A stretch of DNA of 44,233 bases, taken from the NCBI GenBank assembly GCA_025800105.1, contig JAOXSG010000213.1:1-44233 (forward strand), in the 5' to 3' direction. The DNA is from Cohaesibacter sp. GTDB taxonomy: Bacteria; Pseudomonadota; Alphaproteobacteria; Rhizobiales; Cohaesibacteraceae. The first letter of the stretch is position 1. Each line of letters starts with the position of its first letter. The notes under the pieces were generated by a model, which was not told the DNA's origin, ran no database searches, and worked only from the letters and a program-made list of their open reading frames with translations. This document shows positions 3,487-31,656 of this stretch, one piece after another. Made by a program: the position numbers and the translations under genes.

Positions 3487-5484
3487 GTGTTGGAGCGTGA
3501 TCTGGGTGGGGGGAGTGCGTTGCCCTTGGTGCTGGCGGGGCCGATTGTTCGGCGGGTGCGGGTGGATCATTTGGCGATTTGGTTGGCGGTGAGAGAGCCT
3601 GCCATGGTTCGGTTGGATGTGTTTGTGCCTGCGATGGAGCGTCGCTCTTTTGAGCTGGAGCCGGGGGGCGAGGGCTTGCTTTGGCTGAAAGCGGGCGAGC
3701 ATCTGCATTATTTGATGATTGATTTGGCGCTGGATGCGCCTTTGCCGCAAGAAGTGATGATCCCCTATCGTTTGAGCTTGCGCCCAATTGCGGCTGCTGG
3801 TGATGTGTGGCAAGATCACAGCCATTGGGCGCCTGATCTTTGTTATCCGGGGGCAGAGCTGCCTTTTCTTCGTATTCCGCGCACCATTTCCTCTGTCATG
3901 CATGGCTCTTGCCGAAAGCCCCATAGTGCCTGTGGCGATGGGTTGGTGGCTGCGGATCGCCGTATCGCGCAGTCTTTGGCCGAGCAGGACGATGGGGCCA
4001 CGCTGCCTGAGCTTTTGGTGTTGAGTGGTGATCAGGTTTATGTCGATGATGTGGCTGGACCTATGTTGCAAGCCATTACCGAGCTTGCGCATCTTTTGAA
4101 GCTTCCAGATGAAGAATTGCCCGGCGATGAGAGCGGTGTTTCTGTCAGCGGCAAGGATCTGCGCCAAGCAGGTGGAAAGCTCTATAAGCGTGATGAATTG
4201 TTGCCTGAAATTGATCAGGATTCGTCGGTTTTTGATGTGCTTTTTGGGGGCACCAGTAAGCCGATTTTTACCTCGCTTCATGCCAAAAATCATTTGCTGA
4301 CCTTGGCGGAAATGCTGACCATGTATCTGCTGGTTTGGTCGCCCGCCTGTTGGGCTTTGCTGTCAAAGCCAGAAGCCCCCGGTGATATCGCCGACGATAT
4401 CCGCGCCATGTATGATGCGGAAGTCATGGAGCTTGCTTCTTTTGTTGAGGGCCTTTCCAAAGTGCGCCGTCTTTTGGCGCATTTGCCAACGGCCATGATC
4501 TTTGATGACCATGATGTGAGCGATGATTGGAACCTATCTCTGGCTTGGGAAGATGCTGCTTATGGCCATCCCTTATCGCGCCGGGTGATTGGCAATGCGC
4601 TTGTTGCTTATGGCATCAATCAGGGCTGGGGCAACAGGCCAGAAGCCATTGGCCGTGATTTGATGCCTGTTTTCAAGGATGCGTTGGAACAAACAGGCGC
4701 AGAGGCCCATGACACGGCAATTGATCGCATTTTGAGCTATCAGAAATGGGATTTTGAATGGCCGACCCATCCGCCATTGATTGCCTTGGACACGCGCACC
4801 CGTCGATGGCGATCGGAGCGTAACAGTCATTATCCGTCTGGTCTTTTGGATTGGGAAGCGGCAACGGATCTGCAAGCGCGCTTGCGGGATAAAGATGCGG
4901 TGTTGCTGGTTTCTGCTGCGCCAATTTTTGGGGTGAAGCTGATTGAAGTGGTGCAGAAATTTTTTACCCTGATCGGCAAGCCCTTGATGGTGGATGCGGA
5001 ATATTGGATGGCCCATCCGGGCACGGCAAGCGCCATTCTCAGCATCTTTCAGCATCGCAACACGCCCCGCCATTTTGTTATCCTGTCTGGCGATGTGCAT
5101 TATTCCTTTGTGTATGATGTGCAATTGCGCAATGGCCGACGCTCGCGCAGCGGGGAGAGGGGGCATAATCCTGAAATTTGGCAAATTTGCTCCAGCGGAA
5201 TCAAAAATAAATGGCCAGACAAGCTTTTGGCTTTTCTTGATCACAGCAACCGGTGGGCTTTTTCGCCCCGCTCGCCCTTGAACTGGCTGACCAGACGCAG
5301 AGGTATGCGCATCATCCCGCGAAAGCCGGTTGGCACCCCCCATGGAAGACGCATCCTCAATGCCTCTGGCATTGGTCTGGTGGAGCTTGATGATGACGGA
5401 ACTCCACTGCGCATCGCCCAGTTGAGCGCAGATGGCAAGATCTACGAATTTGAACGAAGAGAAGGCGAAGCCCGGTTGGATTAG
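3487..5484 (+). CDS. PhoD-like metallophosphoesterase / alkaline phosphatase family protein
   Basis: The frame is open from a TTG at 3418, but GGAG seven bases before the GTG at 3487 favours that start (665 residues). Metal-site motifs of the PhoD/calcineurin-like fold are visible in order: an MHGSCRKPH segment, LVLSGDQVYVDD, MIFDDHDVSDDW and, towards the C-terminus, ILSGDVHYSF. PhoD-type enzymes hydrolyse phosphodiesters or monoesters with Fe/Ca or similar metals. No signal peptide or Tat motif is visible, unlike classical exported PhoD, so this long form may be cytoplasmic; substrate unknown. It is the last chromosomal gene before the integrated element, so tRNA-Val and cpdR would have been its neighbours before insertion. 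Confidence 0.85.
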   Translation: MLERDLGGGSALPLVLAGPIVRRVRVDHLAIWLAVREPAMVRLDVFVPAMERRSFELEPGGEGLLWLKAGEHLHYLMIDLALDAPLPQEVMIPYRLSLRPIAAAGDVWQDHSHWAPDLCYPGAELPFLRIPRTISSVMHGSCRKPHSACGDGLVAADRRIAQSLAEQDDGATLPELLVLSGDQVYVDDVAGPMLQAITELAHLLKLPDEELPGDESGVSVSGKDLRQAGGKLYKRDELLPEIDQDSSVFDVLFGGTSKPIFTSLHAKNHLLTLAEMLTMYLLVWSPACWALLSKPEAPGDIADDIRAMYDAEVMELASFVEGLSKVRRLLAHLPTAMIFDDHDVSDDWNLSLAWEDAAYGHPLSRRVIGNALVAYGINQGWGNRPEAIGRDLMPVFKDALEQTGAEAHDTAIDRILSYQKWDFEWPTHPPLIALDTRTRRWRSERNSHYPSGLLDWEAATDLQARLRDKDAVLLVSAAPIFGVKLIEVVQKFFTLIGKPLMVDAEYWMAHPGTASAILSIFQHRNTPRHFVILSGDVHYSFVYDVQLRNGRRSRSGERGHNPEIWQICSSGIKNKWPDKLLAFLDHSNRWAFSPRSPLNWLTRRRGMRIIPRKPVGTPHGRRILNASGIGLVELDDDGTPLRIAQLSADGKIYEFERREGEARLD

Positions 5485-5549
5485 GGCATAGACGCAGTCT
5501 CGGCTTTAAAAGCCAGATGATGACGCTGAACTATATGATTTTATTGAAG

Positions 5550-5564
5550 AAAGGATGGTGGGCG
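5550..5564. repeat. Left attachment core (attL) of the element
   Basis: AAAGGATGGTGGGCG, identical to 31045-31059. Bases 5556-5564 copy the 3' end of the tRNA-Val gene including the encoded CCA. The left flank (5485-5549) is the former downstream sequence of the tRNA gene. Confidence 0.85.
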
Positions 5565-5653
5565 CGGATTTTGAAATCTCGAACCAATTGTTCGATGAAT
5601 TGGATGATTGGATAAGCATCCTGCAAGACACCTCACTGTCCAAGAAAAAATAA
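5564..5653 (+). other. Displaced native 3' end of the serine integrase gene
   Basis: Read in the frame set by the attachment core, bases 5564-5650 encode 29 residues starting ADFEISNQLF and ending SLSKKK, followed by a TAA at 5651-5653. In the integrated state this fragment has no start and is cut off from the gene. When the two element ends are joined at the core, codon 505 of the integrase continues into it without a frameshift or stop, giving a 534-residue protein. The acidic tail (DELDDW) ending in lysines differs from the tRNA-derived tail of the integrated form. Confidence 0.85.
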
Positions 5654-5671
5654 TTTTACAGATAAAACAAG

Positions 5672-5702
5672 GATCACTCTCAGCCTTTTGCTGAGAGTGA
5701 TC
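5672..5702. other. Inverted repeat upstream of the mobilization genes (oriT or terminator candidate)
   Basis: Perfect 12-bp arms (GATCACTCTCAG and CTGAGAGTGATC) flank a 7-base loop CCTTTTG. It sits 36 bases before the mobC-like gene, the usual place of an origin of transfer, and also 19 bases after the stop of the displaced integrase tail, where it could end integrase transcription in the circular form. No T tract follows, which slightly favours the oriT reading. Confidence 0.5.
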
Positions 5703-5737
5703 TGATCTGTTTCAACACCTAAAAAATTCATAAAATC

Positions 5738-6139
5738 ATGAAAAATACCACATCCTCACGGAACAAGAGTTCCGTGACCATCTCCTTGCGCCTAACCGCC
5801 GAAGAGAAAAGCATCCTTGTGCGTGCATCAAAGGGGCAGTCATTAAGCGCATATATTCGCAAGAAGCTCTTTGCTAGCGACAGCCACACAGACAATCATA
5901 AAACAGAAATGCGGCTATGCCCCAAAGAACGCCAGAAGCTCCTTGCCAAAATTCTAAGCGAGCTTGGCAAAGCGCAACTATCACAATCTCTCTGTGAACT
6001 GGCAGATGCCGCCAAGCTGGGAACTCTTCCTCTGACACCAGACGTGTGTTCAGACATTCAAAAAGCAATCACGAAAATAAATTCGATACGGAGCGATCTC
6101 TTGAAGGCGATGGGGCTACGTAATGGAGGAAGTCCATGA
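5738..6139 (+). CDS. MobC-like mobilization accessory protein
   Basis: The product is 133 residues. The N-terminal part (about 12-50: SVTISLRLTAEEKSILVRAS, then SLSAYIRKKLF) is the ribbon-helix-helix pattern of MobC/relaxosome accessory proteins, and the rest is helical and basic. Its TGA stop overlaps the ATG of the relaxase (ATGA), so the two are coupled. Such proteins bind oriT and help the relaxase open the strands; the perfect inverted repeat at 5672-5702 just upstream is the natural candidate site. No strong ribosome binding site is seen before the ATG at 5738. Confidence 0.75.
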   Translation: MKNTTSSRNKSSVTISLRLTAEEKSILVRASKGQSLSAYIRKKLFASDSHTDNHKTEMRLCPKERQKLLAKILSELGKAQLSQSLCELADAAKLGTLPLTPDVCSDIQKAITKINSIRSDLLKAMGLRNGGSP

Positions 6140-7410
6140 TTATTAAGGCAACTGAGAGATCAGGTGCGAAACACCTCGCTGATCATCTCATGAACCAACA
6201 TGACAATGATCATATTACGGTGCATGCGATCAATGGTTTTATGGCGAACGATGTTCACGGGGCGCTGTCGGAAGCCTATGGCATCAGCAAAGCAACCAAA
6301 TGCAAGAAGTTCATGTTTTCACTATCCCTGTCACCACCGGAAGATGCGGTGGTTTCTGTTGAGGATTTTGAAAATGCCATAAATGACATTGGCGACAAGC
6401 TTGGACTATCCGAACAGCCGCATGTCGTGCTATTTCACGAAAAGAACGCTAGGCGGCACTGTCATGTCGTTTACTCCCGGATTGATCTACAGGAAATGAA
6501 GGCAATCAATCTTTCATATTACAAGGAGAAGCTAAACGATATTGCGCGTGAGCAATATCTCATTCATGGCTGGGATTTACCGAAAGGATTTCAAAACCGA
6601 GCCTTGTCTGATCCGCAAACTTACACCCTTGAAGAATATCAGGTCGCCAAGCGTGCTAAACGCGACCCACGCGAAATCAAAGCCGTACTGAAAAACTGTT
6701 GGCAGCAATCCGATAGCAAGCCAGCATTCGAAGCAGCTTTGCAAGAAAAGGGCTTCTATCTCTGTAAAGGAGATCGGCGCGGTTTTGTTGCACTGGACTG
6801 GCAAGGCAATATCTATTCTTTAAGCCGCTGGACAGGAGAAAAACCCAAGGCTCTCAAAGCTAAATTGGGAGAACCTTCACAGCTTCTTTCTGTTGATGAT
6901 AAGCAGCACGAGATTGACCTAATGATGGATGGCAAGCGCAAAGAGTTTGCCCAAAAACTGGAAGCCGACTTTTCGAATAAATTAGCACCATTGGAAGATC
7001 AACGTCTCCGCCTTGTGAAGCGACAGCGCATAGAGCGACGAAAACTATTCGTCCAACAAAAAACTGCACACAAGCGACAGGCAATAGATCAATCTGCGCG
7101 TCTTCGCACAGGCTTGCGTGGTCTCTGGGATTGGCTGAACGGCAATCGTAAGAAAATTCTTCACCGAAACAAGCAAGAGTTAGAAGACATAAAGCGCCAA
7201 TATGAGGCACAGCTTCTGGCTCTGCTTCAACGACATCAAGTCGAACGGCTTGTTTTGAAGGAGAAATTTATGCGGTTGAAAGCGACACAAGAACTCTCGT
7301 TTGAAGGTTTAGATACAGAATTTGAAAGATGGCATGCCTTAATCGAAGTGGCAGAAAAGAATCTAGAAAAAGAAGGCAATAGAGATAGAGATTTCGACAA
7401 CTTTCGCTAA
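6136..7410 (+). CDS. Relaxase/mobilization nuclease (VirD2-like family)
   Basis: The product is 424 residues. The relaxase domain fills about residues 1-160; the metal-binding histidine triad is visible as HEKNARRHCHVVYSRID near residues 103-119. The protein would nick oriT, stay covalently attached to the 5' end and pilot the strand through a type IV channel via the coupling protein encoded at 12912-14603. The catalytic tyrosine is not obvious at the usual N-terminal motif I; Tyr48 (SEAYGI) is a candidate. The C-terminal half (from about 260) is basic and coiled-coil-like. It overlaps mobC by four bases. Confidence 0.85.
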   Translation: MIIKATERSGAKHLADHLMNQHDNDHITVHAINGFMANDVHGALSEAYGISKATKCKKFMFSLSLSPPEDAVVSVEDFENAINDIGDKLGLSEQPHVVLFHEKNARRHCHVVYSRIDLQEMKAINLSYYKEKLNDIAREQYLIHGWDLPKGFQNRALSDPQTYTLEEYQVAKRAKRDPREIKAVLKNCWQQSDSKPAFEAALQEKGFYLCKGDRRGFVALDWQGNIYSLSRWTGEKPKALKAKLGEPSQLLSVDDKQHEIDLMMDGKRKEFAQKLEADFSNKLAPLEDQRLRLVKRQRIERRKLFVQQKTAHKRQAIDQSARLRTGLRGLWDWLNGNRKKILHRNKQELEDIKRQYEAQLLALLQRHQVERLVLKEKFMRLKATQELSFEGLDTEFERWHALIEVAEKNLEKEGNRDRDFDNFR

Positions 7411-7430: not shown

Positions 7431-10400
7431 TTAATCCGAGGGCAATTCTTCATTTCTGAGATCTCTGCCGGATTTTGCGCCTGCTGCAATTAGTAATTCA
7501 CGCATCTCAGTTGCATACAGAGTCTCTCCAATGCAATAATCAAGCGCTGTATCGTCATAAATATCGACAGCATTGATATTCAATCCGGGCGCTTCGAGCA
7601 AAGCCGCTAAGTTTTTTGGTCGGTTCGTGATAGCGGCCACTATAAGGGCTGTACGATTGTTGGTAAGATTGCGTTGATTGGGGTCAACGTTGTCATGGGC
7701 TAGTAGCTCCTTGACAGTATCGGAATTTCGGCTAGCGCATGCATCCATAAGCGCGGTCCAACCATCTTTTCTCCGACTCTGACTTACATCGATTTCCTTT
7801 CGAGCCAACAATAATTTTACGACTTCAGCTTGCCCATTTTTACACGCGCCCATAAGCGCAGTCCCACCATCGTTTATCAAACTCTGATTTACATCGATTT
7901 CCTTTCGGGCCAACAACAATTTTACAATTTCAGTATGTCCCTTTTCACTTGCAGCCGTAAGCGCTGTCCACCCCTTATCGTTTGTTGACTGGTTTACATT
8001 GATATCCTTGTGTTTCAACAATAGCTTAACAACTTCCGTAAACCCTTTAAAGCTCGCTATCATCAGCGAGGTGGTATAGTTATTGGTTGTTCCTTGATTG
8101 ACATTAATGTTTTCATGCTGCAATAAAATCTCGACAACTTGGCTATCCCCTTCAGAGACGGCCCAGTGCAGAGGTGCCCAACCATTATCTGTCGAAGGCT
8201 GATTGATGTTGATACTCTTGTGAGCCAACAATAGCTTGACTGCCTGAAGATCGGAAATACGAATTGCATTCATCAAGGCCGTCGTACTTGCATAGTCTGT
8301 ACTAGCTTGATTAACGTCTATATCATCGTGCTCTAACAACGCGCGGATAATATCGGGATTGCTTTTGAAAACAGCTTGCATGAGTATTGTTCCTGCAAAA
8401 GGAGTAATACCTCGGTTAACATCAAAATTCTGAGTTTCAAGAAGTTTTCGCAATACCATTGGGCGATTTAAATAAATACATAATAGAAGAGTGGAGCGAC
8501 TATTGTTCTGCTCAAGTTTTTTATCCCTCTCGACCAATGCATCAATGATTTTGTGTATATCGTACTCTGCAAATTTATCGTTAGTCAGTTGAAAATTAAT
8601 GCAGTGTATCAAAGCGATAGCTCGGCGCTCACCGTTCTGCCCACTTGTTCCATTCAGAACATCATCCAGATCAGCGTAAGCAATCAGATCTGCAGGTTGG
8701 ATTTCTGAATTAATATCATACCATGTTGCTACAAAGTGGATTCGAGCGATGGCAATCTCGTACCTCAAAGAAGATTTATCCGGAAAAACGCTAGGATTTA
8801 AAAAAAGATTAAGTGCTTTCCATGCTCGTTGCACATCCTGTATTTCTTGCATGTCATTACTTAGATTATCAATCAGCCGCCATAACACACCACCACATGT
8901 ATAAGCCTGTTGCCGAGATTCTGCCTGTTTTAACAACGTGCTGCGCAACATACGTAACGCGTCTGACGACTGGCGTCGATATTGATGTAAAAATTCGAGC
9001 AAAAAGCTCTCACCCAGAATATCAGGTTCGTAGGGCTTAAGGTAATCTGCTGTACGGGAAGATATAATTTTTGCAGCATGTTGTGCAATTTGGTCAAGTT
9101 GGTTCTGGCTTAATCGTGGTACATCTTTGGGCCATTGCTGATCCATTACGTCGTGCAGAATTTCGCTATCCACCCCACGCAACAATGTAGCCGCACTAAC
9201 ATAACAGCCAATCCATTCCCTTAATTTTTCAGGAAAAGGGTTTTTGTCCTCGTTGTCGTGCCACGGTAGACGATTAGGCGTTTTAATGTAGAAATCGATC
9301 AGATCTCGCCGCGACCATTTGGTATAATCGCGCCCATCGCGAATAGCTTGTCCCATAAGCGCAGCAAACAAAGGATGGCGAATAGCTTTCGGACTTGCCA
9401 TATTTTCACCCATCCAAAACAGCGCATGAACTGCATCGCGGATTCTGGGATGATCTTTATCTAATATATTCTCATCTTCTTCATAGTTTTGCTTACCCAA
9501 TTTTGTTGCTTCAGACATCACGTGAGCCAACAAATCAGAATCCTCTTCCTCGGCGTCCAATACCATTGGCTTGCCTTTTTGGAAGAATATTTTTTGCCCT
9601 TCAGCCAAAGCAGCGACTTTATCAGGAAAGCGACCTTTGAACGCCATCGATTGATGAAGATCGAGCTTTTCAGGATGATCGAGTAAAAGCAGCCGGACTT
9701 TAAAGTTCAACTGCTTATTGCATTGTCGTTCAATCAGAGACGTAATCTTGCCATAATGTTGGCTGTAATCAATGATTATGAGGGTATTTTTTCGCGGAAG
9801 CCAATCTTCCCAAGCATCTTCACTATAAGATTTAATCAATCCCACGTCCCAACTGCTATCGCCGATTTCCGAGTAATATTGATATGACCACTCGGAAACT
9901 AATCGTGTTTTTCCTGCGCCAGATGGCGCAATGATCGAAAACATCAAAAAGCGGGCGCTTTCATCTGCAAGAAATTCGTCAAGTGTTTCCTTCTCTTTTT
10001 TTCTTCCAGAAAAAGAGAGAGAAAAATGATTATATGGGTTCAGCCAAACACCAGGGTCCGTGGATGCCAATGCAACTTCTTTTGACAAATATGGCGGTGG
10101 AGAAAAGGGATTAGAAAGAGAAGGAGGTGAAGGCGTTTTTTTAAACGAGCTATTTTTCGATGGGCCTTCTATACTTCTCTTAGTTCTTTTTTTGGAAAAC
10201 CTGCTTTTGGAAGCCAAATTCTCGATAGTGTCACCATGTAGTGCCACTTCTAAATTACGTGAGCAATCTGAAAATTCACAATGAAACCAATAATATATTG
10301 CAATTACATCGTGTTTACCTAAGTCATTAGTTCCCAAACGAACAAAGCGTTCATATTGATCACTGCCATCTTTGAGACCTAACGGAGCCCGCTTATAAAG

Positions 10401-10565
10401 TACCCTAGATACCGAATAAAACTTGTTAATATCATCGGTGATAATCTCATAATCTCGCGGAAGCGAGTACAGACCGGTACTCTCTATAGCATCTTTGATT
10501 TTCCGGCCTACGGCTGTATGTTCAATATCTTTGGCGACACGTAAAAAATCGATAAAGGAAACCAT
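7431..10565 (-). CDS. STAND-type NTPase with C-terminal ankyrin repeats (putative defence protein)
   Basis: The product is 1044 residues. An N-terminal domain I do not recognise (about 1-120) is followed by a low-complexity Ser/Pro/Lys linker, then an NTPase core with P-loop APSGAGKT at 213-220 and Walker B-like LIIIDY near 262-267. A helical middle follows and then about ten ankyrin-type repeats from about residue 680 to 1040, with a 32-residue period and recurring phrases such as VVKLLLARKEIDVNQS. This order (effector-like N-terminus, NTPase switch, repeat sensor) is that of STAND/NLR-type antiphage proteins. The ATG at 10563-10565 has a GAGAGGTG site. It lies 36 bases downstream of the small gene at 10602-10997, probably in one operon. 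Function is inferred from architecture. Confidence 0.75.
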   Translation of the reverse strand: MVSFIDFLRVAKDIEHTAVGRKIKDAIESTGLYSLPRDYEIITDDINKFYSVSRVLYKRAPLGLKDGSDQYERFVRLGTNDLGKHDVIAIYYWFHCEFSDCSRNLEVALHGDTIENLASKSRFSKKRTKRSIEGPSKNSSFKKTPSPPSLSNPFSPPPYLSKEVALASTDPGVWLNPYNHFSLSFSGRKKEKETLDEFLADESARFLMFSIIAPSGAGKTRLVSEWSYQYYSEIGDSSWDVGLIKSYSEDAWEDWLPRKNTLIIIDYSQHYGKITSLIERQCNKQLNFKVRLLLLDHPEKLDLHQSMAFKGRFPDKVAALAEGQKIFFQKGKPMVLDAEEEDSDLLAHVMSEATKLGKQNYEEDENILDKDHPRIRDAVHALFWMGENMASPKAIRHPLFAALMGQAIRDGRDYTKWSRRDLIDFYIKTPNRLPWHDNEDKNPFPEKLREWIGCYVSAATLLRGVDSEILHDVMDQQWPKDVPRLSQNQLDQIAQHAAKIISSRTADYLKPYEPDILGESFLLEFLHQYRRQSSDALRMLRSTLLKQAESRQQAYTCGGVLWRLIDNLSNDMQEIQDVQRAWKALNLFLNPSVFPDKSSLRYEIAIARIHFVATWYDINSEIQPADLIAYADLDDVLNGTSGQNGERRAIALIHCINFQLTNDKFAEYDIHKIIDALVERDKKLEQNNSRSTLLLCIYLNRPMVLRKLLETQNFDVNRGITPFAGTILMQAVFKSNPDIIRALLEHDDIDVNQASTDYASTTALMNAIRISDLQAVKLLLAHKSININQPSTDNGWAPLHWAVSEGDSQVVEILLQHENINVNQGTTNNYTTSLMIASFKGFTEVVKLLLKHKDINVNQSTNDKGWTALTAASEKGHTEIVKLLLARKEIDVNQSLINDGGTALMGACKNGQAEVVKLLLARKEIDVSQSRRKDGWTALMDACASRNSDTVKELLAHDNVDPNQRNLTNNRTALIVAAITNRPKNLAALLEAPGLNINAVDIYDDTALDYCIGETLYATEMRELLIAAGAKSGRDLRNEELPSD

Positions 10566-12911: not shown

Positions 12912-14603
12912 ATGAACAGCGCTCGTGAAAAAAATTCAAGCACTATAGAAAAGGCCGTCGCTACGGCGGCCTTATTTGTTCTGTATCAGTTCGTGTCTTC
13001 GGCAGAAATAAATTACTATCTAACACTGCTATTCAAATATCTGTTCTATTTCGGTGCCCTGAGCACGCTTTGGTCGCTATATGGTGATTTCCGCTGGTGG
13101 CGATTTACCAAAAGCCTTGAAAAACCGCTGGGACTTGAGGGCACGACACGAACACCGCATGTCCGGGATCTGATCGAAGCGGGCTTGAAAACACAAAATC
13201 TCGACGGTCAGGGTTTTCCGCTTGGTGAAGTCGATCGCACATATCTTTTCTTTGATGGCCCCGGGCATATATATGTTACGGCTGCTACGAATGGCGGCAA
13301 AACGGAAAGCTCTGCTGCTCCCGCTCTATTTGCACTGGGGGTAGACAGAAATATTGTGGTGACAGCCAAGGGTGCTGATCTGGTGCATCTTTGTGCGCAT
13401 CATCGCAAGGCCATTGGTCAGGATGTCATTATTATTGATCCTTTTGGGATGTGTAAGGATATTGATCTTCCAACCCACGACTTCAATGAAATCGGACATT
13501 TGCCGGATCCAGCGGCGAAAGACAGCCCCGAGCTTTTTGAAAAATCGCTGGTAGCGGCCAAAAGACGAATTCCCGACAAGCCAAAATCAAATGCATCTTC
13601 CGACGATATATTCGGGAAAGTCGCTCAAACATTATTGAATGGATCAATCGCCTATTTCGCACATGTTGAAGCTGAAACAGGAGAGTTAGCGTGCAACCTG
13701 CCTTACATTCAGCGGGTATTTTCCAGCTCTGATGCTGAGTTTCAGGAATTTTTGCGTGATATGGCATTGTGCGAAAAATCCGGTGGTGCCATATCCGCAG
13801 TGGCAAAGAATTTTCAGGCAAAACTGGAACGCACACCAAAATTTGCAGAGTCAGTCTTAACCGAAGTCCAAAGCGCCCTTGCATTATACACCAAAGGCAC
13901 CATCTTAGGATCAAGGACTGAATATTCCGACTTTGATCCATCAGTGATCAAAACAGGAAAAGTCACGATCTTTATCGTGATACCGCCAGAGAAAAGCGAA
14001 ACGCACGGCTCCTATGCAGGAGCTATTGTAGATGTGCTCGTTGATGCTGCCATTGAAGCCAACATGTTTGAGCCTCGCGTCACGTTTTTGCTTGATGAGT
14101 TTGCAAAACTCTCCAAAAGTGGCCCACTCCCATCCATCCTAACCTGTCTGTTCATTGGACGTAGTCGGGGTGCGCAAATCGCGGCTTACCTGCAAACAGG
14201 AGCAAGTTTGAAGGCGCTTTATGGCGAAGAAGCTTCCGCCTTTACCTCCCAAGCCGAGATCACCATAGCATTTTCGATCCGCGACTTTAATGACGCTGAG
14301 CTTTACAGCAAACGATCCGGCAAGCGGGCAGTTATGGCACAGAACTATAATCTGCCGGAAAAGGCCACAATGCAGGGTGAGCATCAATATTCAGTCGGCA
14401 TCAATGAACGCGCTGTGCCAATCATGCGGCCTGAAGAATTTATGCAGCTCCCGGATTTCACTGCGGCTCTGTTTTACAAGCAAAATCCCGTGCATGTCGC
14501 AAAGTTGATTTCCTATCGTCAGGTCGATCCGTGGGTTCATCAGGCAGGCATTGATCCGGGAGCGCCAAAGCTAAAACCTCTCCCAATCAAATTTCGCTTC
14601 TAA
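12912..14603 (+). CDS. Type IV coupling protein (VirD4/TraG-like)
   Basis: The product is 563 residues. Two N-terminal membrane helices (about 13-32 and 38-57) anchor a cytoplasmic motor domain. Walker A is AATNGGKT (Lys130) and Walker B is FLLDEFAKL, both typical of VirD4/TraG ATPases, which deliver the relaxase-DNA complex to a type IV secretion channel. The charged end (about 530-563) may be a substrate-docking tail. It heads a co-directional run of small membrane proteins to 17583. No VirB channel genes are present in the window, so this protein would have to couple to a channel supplied by another element. Confidence 0.88.
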   Translation: MNSAREKNSSTIEKAVATAALFVLYQFVSSAEINYYLTLLFKYLFYFGALSTLWSLYGDFRWWRFTKSLEKPLGLEGTTRTPHVRDLIEAGLKTQNLDGQGFPLGEVDRTYLFFDGPGHIYVTAATNGGKTESSAAPALFALGVDRNIVVTAKGADLVHLCAHHRKAIGQDVIIIDPFGMCKDIDLPTHDFNEIGHLPDPAAKDSPELFEKSLVAAKRRIPDKPKSNASSDDIFGKVAQTLLNGSIAYFAHVEAETGELACNLPYIQRVFSSSDAEFQEFLRDMALCEKSGGAISAVAKNFQAKLERTPKFAESVLTEVQSALALYTKGTILGSRTEYSDFDPSVIKTGKVTIFIVIPPEKSETHGSYAGAIVDVLVDAAIEANMFEPRVTFLLDEFAKLSKSGPLPSILTCLFIGRSRGAQIAAYLQTGASLKALYGEEASAFTSQAEITIAFSIRDFNDAELYSKRSGKRAVMAQNYNLPEKATMQGEHQYSVGINERAVPIMRPEEFMQLPDFTAALFYKQNPVHVAKLISYRQVDPWVHQAGIDPGAPKLKPLPIKFRF

Positions 14604-23439: not shown

Positions 23440-24234
23440 TCAAATTTTATGAGCTGTATCTAATCGACGATGTATCATTGAAACAATTGTCAAAATATCT
23501 TCCGCGTCTTTTTTATCCATTGGCCAATGAATACGCGCTTCGTGAGCGGTTGTATTCCTGAACATACCAAACGTTCCCCGAATTAAGTTGGCAAAGCCGG
23601 ATTGCTCGCTTTTTTCACTAACGGTATTCAATGAATTGATAGCCAAGAGTGGTGATTTTCCGTTTAGAGCCTTGTCAATTAAGCTGGCTCCATCATCAAC
23701 CAATCCAGTTTTATCCCTTATTTTTGATGCGATGCTTTTTACAGATTCATGTACAGCATGGAAATAATCGTTGGCCAAAAGCTCTGCCTTACAAAACTTC
23801 AAAACATCGGGGTGGACGCTACGCAGCTCTAGATCATGGCGCAAATCTTTCGCCCGCAGCTCTGCCTCTGACAATGTTTTTGCGCGTGATGTTGCAGACA
23901 GCTCACCTTGCTCATTGACAACGAGACCTGCAAAAACCAATGCTTTATTTAGATTGGCTCTCATTAGTTCGTATCGTTCGGGATTTTTAATATATTTGGC
24001 AGGTTTCATTGACTGGCGGATAAACGCAAGAATATTAGCTCGGCTTTGCTTTGTATTTTGGGATTGAACAAAGGCATTATAAATCCTGTGCCTTTTTGTA
24101 TTTGGTCCCGGATCAGCCATTTTACTGGTCTGAAACAAATACGCGATTTCTGAGTTTGTCAGGCCATCTTCGGTATCTCCCAAAGCACCCGCAATCGCCT
24201 CAAGTTGATCCTGTGAGAACAATTTTGTCATCAT
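23440..24234 (-). CDS. TIGR02391/Ymh-like family protein
   Basis: The product is 264 residues. The C-terminal half matches the TIGR02391 (Ymh) pattern: a YFHAVHESVKSIASKIRDKTG segment, then GKSPLL, then GFANLIRGTFGMFRNTTAHEAR, which is reminiscent of HEPN/Abi-type helical bundles with a conserved RN-x3-H motif. Such proteins are common on mobile elements beside restriction and abortive-infection genes; biochemical activity is not established. The N-terminal half (SQDQLEAIAGALGDTEDGLT) looks like a winged-helix or DNA-binding segment. It is divergent from the gene at 24453. Confidence 0.7.
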   Translation of the reverse strand: MMTKLFSQDQLEAIAGALGDTEDGLTNSEIAYLFQTSKMADPGPNTKRHRIYNAFVQSQNTKQSRANILAFIRQSMKPAKYIKNPERYELMRANLNKALVFAGLVVNEQGELSATSRAKTLSEAELRAKDLRHDLELRSVHPDVLKFCKAELLANDYFHAVHESVKSIASKIRDKTGLVDDGASLIDKALNGKSPLLAINSLNTVSEKSEQSGFANLIRGTFGMFRNTTAHEARIHWPMDKKDAEDILTIVSMIHRRLDTAHKI

Positions 24235-29276: not shown

Positions 29277-29462
29277 TTGATACCTGAAAATGACAAATAT
29301 CTCGTGCACCTAAAACACTTAGACCTGCCACACGACAAAAAACTTGATCTGATACAGACTGTCAGAAATATTTTCCAAAATGCCATTGATCGGCATTTTG
29401 GCGAAGATCCAGTACAAACCGTTCTTGAATTGAAAGCTGAAAAGCGTGCAATCAAGCCATAG
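29277..29462 (+). CDS. Small conserved protein encoded just upstream of the serine integrase
   Basis: The product is 61 residues. The start is TTG at 29277, seven bases after GGAGGAG; a nearer ATG at 29272 is followed by one sense codon and a stop (ATG TCT TGA). The phrase LDLPHDKKLDLIQTVRNIF and the ending HFGEDPVQTVLELK are typical of a small family that I associate with the region in front of large serine recombinases in alphaproteobacteria. A directionality factor or integrase partner is a reasonable guess, unproven. It is 81 bases before the integrase. Confidence 0.65.
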   Translation: MIPENDKYLVHLKHLDLPHDKKLDLIQTVRNIFQNAIDRHFGEDPVQTVLELKAEKRAIKP

Positions 29463-29543: not shown

Positions 29544-31145
29544 ATGCCATCAAGCTATCAAATTCCTGCTGTCATCTATTGCCGCGTTTCAGACGCCAAG
29601 CAAATACGTGATGGCAACGGTCTAGAATCACAAGAAACCAGATGTCGCGAATATGCTCGGCATCGAAATTACGCCGTTCAATCTGTCTTTAAAGATGATA
29701 TGAGCGGTCGTTCAATTGAGCGGCCTGCCATGAAAGAAATGCTATCCTATTTGAGGAGACGGCGTTCTCAAGGTTATGTAGTAATTATCGATGATATATC
29801 GCGTTTAGCGAGAGGCCTAGAAGCCCACCTAAGCTTGCGCAACTCTATTGAAGAAGCTGGTGGCAAACTAGAATCTCCTTCTATTGAATTTGGTCAGGAC
29901 TCAGACTCAATTCTGGTTGAGAATTTACTTGCCTCTGTTGCGCAGCATCATCGTGAAAAGAACGGTGAGCAGACGAAAAACCGTATGCGTGCTCGCATGC
30001 AAAATGGCTTTTGGGCGTTTCAGAGCCCTGTAGGATACGAATACAAGCGTGCGCCCGGCGGCGGCAAAATACTGGTTCGAAAAGAACCGGAAGCATCCTT
30101 GGTAATAGAAGCCTTTGAAAGTTTCGCCAGCGGGCGCTTTCAATCGACATTAGAGGTGCATCGTTTCCTCGAAGTTAAACCGGAATTTCCAAGGCGCGCT
30201 AACGGTCTGCCCTTCCAAACAGTATATGACATGCTACAGCGCCCCATATATGCGGGCTTTATCCATCACGAGGACTGGGGCATTAACATGATAGCCGCCC
30301 AGCACGAAGCGCTCATTAGCTATGAGACCTTTCTCAAAGTGCAAGAGCGCATGAACCAAAGGGCAAAGGCACCAGCACGTAAAGACTTGCATGAAGACTT
30401 CCCCCTTCGAGGCTTCGTGTGCTGTGGTCACTGTAATCAGCCATACACAGCCGCGTGGACGAAGGGTAGGAGCTCGTATTACCCTTATTATTTGTGTGAC
30501 ACAAAAGGCTGTATTGCCTATCGAAAATCTGTTCGCAGAGCTGATCTCGAAGGGGAATTTGAAGGCCTCTTGAAAAAACTCGAACCGAGTGAAGAGCTTT
30601 TTCATCTGTCTTTCCACCTGTTCAAGGACATGTGGGAGGGCAAAATGAAGTCCGTAAACAAGCATAAACAGCACATGGAAAAGGAAATCCAAAACACCGA
30701 CAAAGAGGTAGAAAACTACCTTTCCCGCATTGTAGAAGCCAGTCATCCTCGCGTCATCTCTACCTATGAAAAGAAGATAGATTCTCTTGAATCGAGGAAG
30801 CGGCTATTGCAGGAGAAAATCCAAAACTGTGGCCGTGCGACACAAGACCCTAGTGGAGTTTATCGAACCGCCTTTGAATTCCTAAAAAGCCCAATGAATC
30901 TATGGGTTTCAGACAAGTTTGAAGACAAAAGAGCGGTCTTAAAGCTCGTTTTTGCCGAGCAACTAAGCTATGTTCGTGGAGAGGGTTATCGAACCGCAAA
31001 AACCTCGCTACCATTTACACTTACGAGCAATTTAGGGTCGAAAAAAAGGATGGTGGGCGTAACTGGGATTGAACCAGTGACCCCTTCGATGTCAACGAAG
31101 TGCTCTCCCGCTGAGCTATACGCCCATCCTGTCGGCAGTGTTTAA
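29544..31145 (+). CDS. Large serine integrase (recombinase family protein) of the element
   Basis: The product is 533 residues in the integrated state. The resolvase domain (about 8-150) has catalytic Ser16 in IYCRVSD and the segments SGRSIERPAM and IIDDISRLARG. A recombinase domain follows, then a zinc ribbon (CCGHCNQPY and LCDTKGC, about 290-330), then a coiled coil (about 360-430). Residues from 506 on (VTGIEPVTPSMS and beyond) are encoded by the host tRNA-Val gene read antisense; the natural 29-residue end sits at 5564-5653. It lies at the right border and presumably performs integration and, with a helper, excision. A LexA-type box lies upstream. Confidence 0.92.
   Translation: MPSSYQIPAVIYCRVSDAKQIRDGNGLESQETRCREYARHRNYAVQSVFKDDMSGRSIERPAMKEMLSYLRRRRSQGYVVIIDDISRLARGLEAHLSLRNSIEEAGGKLESPSIEFGQDSDSILVENLLASVAQHHREKNGEQTKNRMRARMQNGFWAFQSPVGYEYKRAPGGGKILVRKEPEASLVIEAFESFASGRFQSTLEVHRFLEVKPEFPRRANGLPFQTVYDMLQRPIYAGFIHHEDWGINMIAAQHEALISYETFLKVQERMNQRAKAPARKDLHEDFPLRGFVCCGHCNQPYTAAWTKGRSSYYPYYLCDTKGCIAYRKSVRRADLEGEFEGLLKKLEPSEELFHLSFHLFKDMWEGKMKSVNKHKQHMEKEIQNTDKEVENYLSRIVEASHPRVISTYEKKIDSLESRKRLLQEKIQNCGRATQDPSGVYRTAFEFLKSPMNLWVSDKFEDKRAVLKLVFAEQLSYVRGEGYRTAKTSLPFTLTSNLGSKKRMVGVTGIEPVTPSMSTKCSPAELYAHPVGSV
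31045..31059. repeat. Right attachment core (attR) of the element
   Basis: AAAGGATGGTGGGCG, identical to 5550-5564. It overlaps both the 3' end of tRNA-Val (31051 onwards) and codons 501-505 of the integrase gene. Confidence 0.85.
31051..31125 (-). tRNA. tRNA-Val (anticodon GAC)
   Basis: 75 bases including encoded CCA. The acceptor stem is GGGCGTA/TACGCCC with discriminator A, the D arm is GCTC/GAGC, the anticodon stem is CTTCG/CGAAG around loop TTGACAT (GAC), and the T arm is ACTGG/CCAGT around TTCAATC. The gene is intact after integration because the element carries a copy of the 3' end. It lies entirely antisense to the last codons of the integrase frame. Confidence 0.95.
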
Positions 31146-31234
31146 TGCCTTGCGGTGAAAAGGGTTCTACTTTCCAAAAGAGCCAAATGCAAGCCCCTTT
31201 GTGGGAAAAGTCCCCAATAAGATATCCATAAGAC

Positions 31235-31259
31235 AAAAGCCCGCTGATGGCGGGCTTTT
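31235..31259 (-). terminator. Terminator after cpdR
   Basis: AAAAGCCCGC and GCGGGCTTTT around a four-base loop form a hairpin with T tracts on both strands. It lies 38 bases past the cpdR stop. Confidence 0.8.
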
Positions 31260-31296
31260 ATCGGATGAGTTTGCTTTAAAGGGAGCGGTTTGGGGC

Positions 31297-31656
31297 TTAT
31301 GCCGCCAGCATTTTGCCCACTTCATTGACCAGATCGCGCAGGTGAAAGGGTTTGGAGAGAACCTTGGCGTCTTTGGGAGCCTGAGAATCGGGGTTCAGGG
31401 CAACGGCGGCAAACCCTGTGATGAACATCACTTTCAGATCCGGGTCCAGTTCCGTTGCGCGGCGTGCCAATTCAATGCCATCCATTTCGGGCATCACAAT
31501 GTCGGTCAAAAGCAGGGTGAATGGTTCTTCCCTCAAGCGGTCATAAGCGCTTTTGCCATTGTCATACGACACCACTTCATAGCCTGCATTTTGTAGCGCA
31601 CGCGCCAAAAAGCGGCGCATATCATTGTCATCTTCTGCCAGCAAAATTTGCGACAT
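31297..31656 (-). CDS. cpdR: Single-domain response regulator CpdR
   Basis: The product is 119 residues from the ATG at 31654-31656 (MSQILLAEDDNDMRRFLARA); an extended frame upstream has no such match. It is a receiver domain only: acidic pair EDD at 9-11, phospho-acceptor Asp52 in LLLTDIVMPEMDG, switch Thr in FITGFAA and Lys in VLSKPFHLRDL. CpdR, when unphosphorylated, directs ClpXP to the pole and primes proteolysis of cell-cycle factors in Caulobacter and relatives. The CckA-ChpT phosphorelay controls it. It ends in a terminator and lies next to the tRNA-Val target site. Confidence 0.88.
   Translation of the reverse strand: MSQILLAEDDNDMRRFLARALQNAGYEVVSYDNGKSAYDRLREEPFTLLLTDIVMPEMDGIELARRATELDPDLKVMFITGFAAVALNPDSQAPKDAKVLSKPFHLRDLVNEVGKMLAA

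Follow-up and report, generated by a model that had tools for sequence, protein, structure and literature searches.

The element and its integration site

We analysed a 44,233-nucleotide stretch of DNA from Cohaesibacter sp. (contig JAOXSG010000213.1 of assembly GCA_025800105.1; our contig C499, from an incomplete 3.57-Mb genome), hereafter called the window, in which a mobilizable element of 25,495 bp has entered the tRNA-Val(gac) gene at its 3' end. Besides a large serine recombinase (LSR), the element codes for a relaxase, a coupling protein and a protein that weakly matches NikA. It is the recombinase, the putative integrase, that concerns us here. Its gene lies at one element end, with a frame that reads into tRNA-Val in antisense, and a prediction made from the sequence of the window (the original prediction) placed the true 3' end of the gene at the other end of the element.

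The borders of the element are marked by two copies of a 15-bp core, AAAGGATGGTGGGCG, at 5550-5564 and 31045-31059; a direct comparison of 5301-6000 with 30801-31500 returns this core as the longest word common to both stretches. An empty site is present in a congener (locus L291 of genome G355), where the left flank of the window aligns through 5564 (95.3% identity) and the right flank from 31045 (95.8%), around one core and tRNA-Val. Because these flanks meet around a single core, the borders, and hence the length of 25,495 bp, are exact. The main features are as follows.

5550-5564, + strand: left core, 15 bp, same as 31045-31059; the left-flank alignment to the G355 empty site stops here
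5564-5653, + strand: detached integrase 3' end, 29 codons and TAA, in frame once the ends are joined; homologous tails in relatives; family pN/pS (nonsynonymous over synonymous change) 0.27 for codons 11-27
5579-5584, + strand: box TCGAAC, at +25 from the A of core ATGG (attP position)
5738-6139, + strand: NikA/MobC-like mobilization protein, first gene past the tail (sub-threshold Pfam match, PF21983, E 3e-4)
6136-7410, + strand: relaxase, MobA/VirD2-like (PF03432, E 1.9e-13)
12912-14603, + strand: coupling protein, TraG/VirD4-like (PF02534, E 1.4e-38)
29277-29462, + strand: accessory gene, 61 aa, TTG start, candidate directionality factor by position; conserved upstream of the integrase gene across the family
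29544-31145, + strand: LSR gene, integrated form, 533 aa, body ending at the core (PF00239, PF07508, PF13408; PHROG integrase; fold of relatives)
31045-31059, + strand: right core, within the integrase reading frame (identity to left core; G355 empty site)
31069-31074, + strand: box TTGAAC, at +20 from the A of core ATGG (attB position; tRNA T-arm in antisense)
31051-31125, - strand: target gene, tRNA-Val(gac) (ARAGORN)

The integrase frame across the joined ends

When the element ends are joined at the core, the frame that opens at 29544 continues into 5564-5653 to give a product of 534 aa, whose C-terminus runs from ...RMVG directly into ADFEISNQLFDELDDWISILQDTSLSKKK, with 29 post-core codons, no frame break and a TAA stop at 5651-5653. 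This is as originally predicted. The integrated form, read from 29544 to 31145, has 533 aa, with 28 residues after the core. That number too agrees with the prediction, which had all 28 read from tRNA-Val; a count from the coordinates places only 22 of them wholly inside the antisense tRNA (31051-31125), the last six lying past it. The LSR has resolvase, recombinase and zinc-ribbon domains in that order (PF00239, PF07508 and PF13408, all above Pfam cut-offs) and is predicted to catalyse attP x attB, for which exact integration at the core is indirect support.

A 29-codon open frame is not in itself significant: of the positions sampled in the element, 1202 of 3406 (35%) begin an open run this long, and tail length was rejected as evidence for this reason. 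The excess over chance comes from conservation of the tail in related elements.

Conservation of the detached tail

We compared 31 elements, taking up to 60 kb upstream of the integrase gene in each. A search with exact cores recovered the left end in only a few of them: homologous tails follow exact core matches in G033a, G177 and G090, and those of G033b and G031 were spotted just downstream of chance matches. As common cores are short, often 6-9 bp, a hidden Markov model (HMM) of the tail was needed. The HMM of these five tails and that of the window found more tails on the integrase strand, with none on the other strand below E 0.89. With a 16-row tail alignment (A1, built from the same elements), six extended stretches and one contig from the Cohaesibacter genome itself, which brought the set to 32 elements, a homologous tail is found at the far end in 26 of 32 (E<=0.05; three of the 26 are weak, with E from 2e-3 to 3e-2). 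All 32 tails detected in total lie on the integrase strand, with none opposite. The six elements for which no tail was found are G040 (80 kb searched), G076 (60 kb) and four with 14-37 kb searched, and 1.7 Mb of control sequence, shuffled in two-base blocks, gave no tail match at E<=0.05.

The original prediction had proposed a hunt for orphan fragments in frame with their core, and these occur across the order (57 of 397 genomes) and the class (19 of 385), the Cohaesibacter genome being included in both counts. They also occur where the integrase does. In a sample of 199 genomes of the order, again including our own, 39 carry LSR relatives at E<=1e-40; tails are present in 29 of these 39 against 8 of the 160 integrase-negative genomes (Fisher p 2e-19). 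The junction frame is kept in every one of the 20 elements (from the 26 with a tail) that have DNA-pattern anchors at both ends, and integrase and tail distances are correlated (Mantel r 0.468, p 1e-4, n=26). A core that breaks the frame, or a tail that is not conserved among relatives, had been named in advance as evidence against a swap of the integrase C-terminus upon integration; the frame is kept at the core and the tail is conserved, and the predicted swap is upheld on both counts.

This comparative sequence evidence shows that attP sits inside the 3' end of the LSR gene, the order in the free form being integrase body, core, tail. When the element enters the 3' end of a tRNA gene, the tail is stranded at the far element end and variable residues read from the antisense tRNA take its place.

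Two observations on the left ends are worth recording. In G177, G090, G031, G195b and G151, several same-strand tails are stacked upstream of one integrase, with no full-length integrase upstream; the arrangement points to successive insertions into one tRNA, in which the inner integrases were lost. Left flanks are also alike just before the core in two pairs, namely G131 and G044 (a ggaaact-like stretch), and G033b and contig C148 of the Cohaesibacter genome (with a reading RFGLAGGKAQ).

An attP half-site and an acidic helix in one tail

For codon analysis we took 53 tails at E<1, of which 45 passed a filter (E<1e-3, 27 residues, Asn at codon 10), leaving 40 non-redundant sequences, with pN/pS calculated from 18 disjoint tail pairs. 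Codons 1-3 are the core, and the core codon is ATG in 30 of the 40 and a Leu, Val or Asn codon in the other 10. Codons 9-10 (Ser-Asn) are nearly always TCG AAC: TCG accounts for 29 of 32 Ser codons and AAC for 40 of 40, Asn itself being required by the filter. This codon uniformity indicates constraint at the DNA level. The pattern is quite different across codons 11-27 (roughly x-L-F-E-x-L-E-x-W-x-x-x-L-K), where change is mainly synonymous (pN/pS 0.27) in the integrase frame, while the same DNA read in the two other frames gives 0.97 and 2.08. This part of the tail, the acidic helix described below, is under protein-level selection.

The TCGAAC-type box recurs both in the tails and in the target tRNAs. 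Counted from the A of core NTGG, its position is +25 in 43 of 49 tails, the other six lacking a box; in the antisense tRNAs it lies at +20 in 22 of 22 that pass a position filter, out of 31 elements. The tail-side spacing is partly fixed by the HMM alignment; the tRNA-side spacing is not. In the tRNA the box is the T-arm, and the T-arm as target would explain the range of tRNA genes used. In the LI integrase, the zinc-ribbon motif lies 5 bp nearer the centre in attB than in attP (PMC3783163). As the offset of +25 versus +20 equals this 5-bp attP/attB offset of LSRs, the first ten or so tail codons are also the attP half-site. No mirrored box was seen on the integrase-side arm; the 5-bp offset is known from one arm only.

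The tail had been described as acidic, then lysine-rich, and here the two halves of the description part company. The acidic portion is conserved, with a mean net charge of -3.0 over codons 11-27 and a negative value in 47 of 49 tails. The lysine-rich end (KKK or KKR) occurs in 2 of 50, those of the window and of G033a, and is not a family trait; what the family conserves at the protein level is an acidic amphipathic helix. An AlphaFold model of the integrase homologue from G206 (49.8% identical to the window LSR, first 44 residues missing) has an LSR fold that matches the structures of the SPbeta, Bxb1, PhiC31 and LI integrases; the long coiled coil in it is accompanied by a disordered linker and, with moderate confidence, by a tail helix of 21 residues. 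In the alignment used for this model (A2), 25 of 27 tail rows are misplaced, and we used the helix but not its docking. The model suggests that the helix probably sits on a flexible linker.

Natural genes with the tail attached

Two natural cases in which body and tail are joined were identified. A 27.4-kb IMG/VR contig (L285) carries a complete integrase gene of 533 aa with the tail and with the box at +25. The accessory ORF (open reading frame) lies upstream, and the integrase gene is flanked by a replication initiator gene on one side and by neck, terminase, portal and head genes (PHROGs) on the other; no tRNA and no end repeat were found on the contig. From its intact attP, L285 may be a non-integrated phage genome. 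In G206, an integrase gene without its N-terminus runs through the core into the tail and then, as judged by eye, mobilization-type genes; a transposase-like ORF (also by eye) lies beside the truncated gene, and a second integrase fragment faces tRNA-Arg. This arrangement is read as a tandem array. Tandem arrays were also considered as a source of many natural junctions and set aside, as only the G206 tail had an integrase in the same open frame. A further contig (C118 of G190, locus L150, 9849 bp) has the integrase at one end and a tail at the other, and may be an excised circle opened at the core; simple joining of its ends misses +25 by one base and breaks the frame, and the contig is at most suggestive.

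Distribution and targets of the integrase family

Relatives of the window LSR were recovered with an alignment query, a single-protein query against genome contigs having given no match. Among the first 37 loci, some of which overlap, 31 have a tRNA near the integrase gene (ARAGORN), and the integrase C-termini typically run from '...TLPFKVL...M[A/V]' directly into an antisense tRNA for Val, Ser, Thr, Arg, Leu, Gln or Met. A further 95 loci comprise 15 from virus contigs and 80 from named genomes, the latter being the best among at least 547 relatives; the integrase reads into an ARAGORN-called tRNA in 73, into other sequence in 20 (several of which look by eye like decayed tRNA copies), reaches the contig end in one, and carries the tail in one. 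By record title, relatives occur in Rhodobacterales, Hyphomicrobiales, Sphingomonadales and Acetobacteraceae, in some Gamma- and Betaproteobacteria, and in metagenome-assembled genomes of Nitrospirales and Nitrospinaceae. One open frame (652) of G326 gave no integrase match.

GenBank phages gave no match at >=60% identity to two family integrases and none to one tail. Among plasmids, a tail occurs in one record, that of p2 from Tritonibacter mobilis A3R06 (NZ_CP110385.1), where an integrase remnant lies at tRNA-Thr and the tail, with its box at +25, 18.1 kb off. Eleven Paracoccus (pro)phage serine recombinases have been described as a single cluster without an identified integration site, phage Pami6 using tRNA-Met (PMC6536676). 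These recombinases may belong to the present family, whose short cores escape repeat searches.

Elsewhere in the Cohaesibacter genome, contigs C537, C311, C1164, C6, C215, C148 and C173 bear additional relatives of the integrase and another three orphan tails, bringing the totals to ten integrase matches and four tails; the host thus carries several elements or remnants of this integrase family. The element in the window also bears cargo on the - strand: at 7431-10565, a large protein, one half of which has ankyrin repeats, with a match to STAND NTPase below threshold, which is possibly defence-related, and at 23440-24234, a gene with a Hypoth_Ymh domain (PF09509, E 6e-41).

A conserved accessory gene upstream of the integrase

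A small accessory gene precedes the integrase gene in 32 of 32 elements, within 85 nt in 31 of them, and in 116 of 129 loci overall, a set that includes overlapping loci and loci with short upstream stretches. Its product carries the motif D-L-T-x-x-Q-K...L-W-x-I...F-V-D-L-G-F-G. For three accessory relatives, NCBIfam and PHROG returned nothing and Pfam nothing above cut-off, and the modelled fold, one long helix with short ones, is too small to interpret (predicted local distance difference test, pLDDT, 77.5; predicted template modelling score, pTM, 0.55). With the integrase accounted for, accessory and tail distances show a weak correlation in what is a liberal test (partial Mantel r 0.18, p 0.009, n=26). 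Position and conservation make this protein a family-wide candidate for a partner or directionality factor in attL x attR.

What the exchange of C-termini may do

Because attP lies within the integrase gene, two forms of the enzyme are forced: a free form with the helix, and a lone integrated copy without it. The enzyme acting on attP x attB would thus carry the helix, the one acting on attL x attR would not, and the helix could serve as a built-in sensor of the free versus the integrated state; the original prediction had named integrase stability, DNA binding or directionality as what the swap could switch. Its likeliest role would be to commit the free form to integration, for instance by occupying a coiled-coil or partner-binding surface and so blocking a switch to excision by the accessory protein. 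Loss of the helix on integration would disfavour re-integration, with excision then depending on the accessory protein. The reaction preference of LSRs can be altered by C-terminal additions, as seen in fusions of integrase with recombination directionality factor (RDF; PMC5737554). On this ground we think it fairly probable that the free form is biased to integration by its helix, and that a different regime follows once integration has removed the helix. A more ambitious version is quite possible, though we hold it with less confidence: the recombinase would be self-sensing, the same gene pair being present in both states and the DNA rearrangement rewriting the C-terminus so as to set direction without regulated expression of a directionality factor. 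As part of this same proposal, site recognition, state sensing and the tRNA T-arm target would form one module mobile among tRNA genes, since the att half-site doubles as codons of the helix-bearing tail.

Several results weigh against a directional role of the helix. Without the close integrases, the co-variation of integrase and tail loses significance (r 0.157, p 0.11, n=18); five elements have several tails, with the nearest assumed to be the partner, which leaves the pairing uncertain; and the modelled helix is of moderate confidence, from an alignment in which most tail rows are misplaced.

It is also possible that the tail is simply essential, with integration inactivating the enzyme, so that the integrase of an intact relative would be needed in trans and no directional sensing would be involved. 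A tail that is under protein-level selection yet missing from the integrated form is what such a lock would produce, several relatives are present in some genomes (ten integrase matches and four tails in our own) and could help in trans, and archaeal suicidal integrases provide a precedent (PMC8371274). Unlike the archaeal split, however, integration here leaves the catalytic, recombinase and zinc-ribbon parts in one open frame, and the accessory gene is retained beside the integrase gene; we regard the lock as the main alternative, but a rather unlikely one. Less probable again, and in our opinion improbable, is a general protein role for the tail in folding, dimer stability or half-life, in which the tail-less form excises equally well and the swap is a by-product of attP position. 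Conservation of the tail is compatible with this, as is the usual control of LSR direction by a factor distinct from the integrase (PMC3783163, PMC5737554).

Were the tail a separate small gene, with its ATG in the core and translated alone from the left end of integrated elements, the ATG in 30 of 40 non-redundant tails would be accounted for, but not the Leu, Val or Asn codon in the other 10. Moreover, what lies before the left core is largely chromosomal sequence in which little beyond a few core-adjacent bases is conserved, while the tail agrees in frame with the integrase in 20 of 20 elements and forms a single ORF with it in L285 and G206, all of which makes a separate gene very improbable. 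It is hardly credible that only the DNA of the attP half-site is conserved, the encoded peptide being irrelevant: the core and box codons are indeed constrained as DNA (TCG in 29 of 32 Ser codons, AAC in 40 of 40), but codons 11-27, past the box, change mainly synonymously, and do so in the integrase frame only. Chance read-through into the element end, which the frequency of 29-codon open runs (1202 of 3406 positions) would allow, is just as hard to credit, being refuted by homologous in-frame tails across the family and by protein-level selection.

Relation to known systems

A role of the helix in directing the reaction, which is the reading we favour, bears on how serine integrases choose direction, a main question on enzymes that are widely used in genome engineering, and the LSR tail swap makes this hypothesis directly testable. 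The family amounts to a natural repeated experiment, in which the same enzyme occurs with or without a conserved C-terminal helix, as set by DNA state. There is also a practical side: most integrase sequences of the family are of the tail-less form, and enzymes taken from chromosomes would miss the true C-terminus. In addition, the T-arm box, shifted by 5 bp, suggests how one integrase family uses so many tRNA genes. Among the open-licence papers listed by our literature searches, none describes an LSR C-terminal swap in its title or at the start of its abstract.

One of two close precedents is that of self-disrupting (suicidal) integrases, described as exclusively archaeal in a 2021 review (PMC8371274). 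As in the archaeal SSV-type tyrosine integrases (SSV1, pTN3, pT26-2), where attP lies within the integrase gene and integration splits it (PMC8371274), attP here lies inside the gene; in contrast, the bacterial serine enzyme keeps its body and exchanges only its C-terminal tail. Judged by its sequence, the window integrase would work like a suicidal integrase without being a member of that group, being bacterial and serine rather than archaeal and tyrosine, and its family extends the self-splitting type to bacteria, in serine recombinases carried by mobilizable elements and by phages.

Among serine integrases, those of LI/A118, SPbeta, Bxb1 and PhiC31 share the fold and, as shown for LI, a zinc-ribbon box displaced by the same 5 bp between attP and attB, but the present family differs in having attP within the integrase frame and many different tRNA genes as targets. 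The artificial integrase-RDF fusions of PhiC31 and Bxb1 resemble our case in that a C-terminal addition shifts the preferred reaction; there, however, a whole RDF promotes excision, whereas here a short natural tail is borne by the integrating form (PMC5737554). The other close precedent is the repressor of mycobacteriophage BPs, in which attP also lies within the gene, integration removes a 33-residue C-terminal piece, and the protein reports the state of the DNA (PMC4557955). The BPs gene codes for a repressor and the piece removed is an ssrA-like degradation tag (PMC4557955); in the family described here, it is the integrase itself that is altered, and the part exchanged is an acidic helix.
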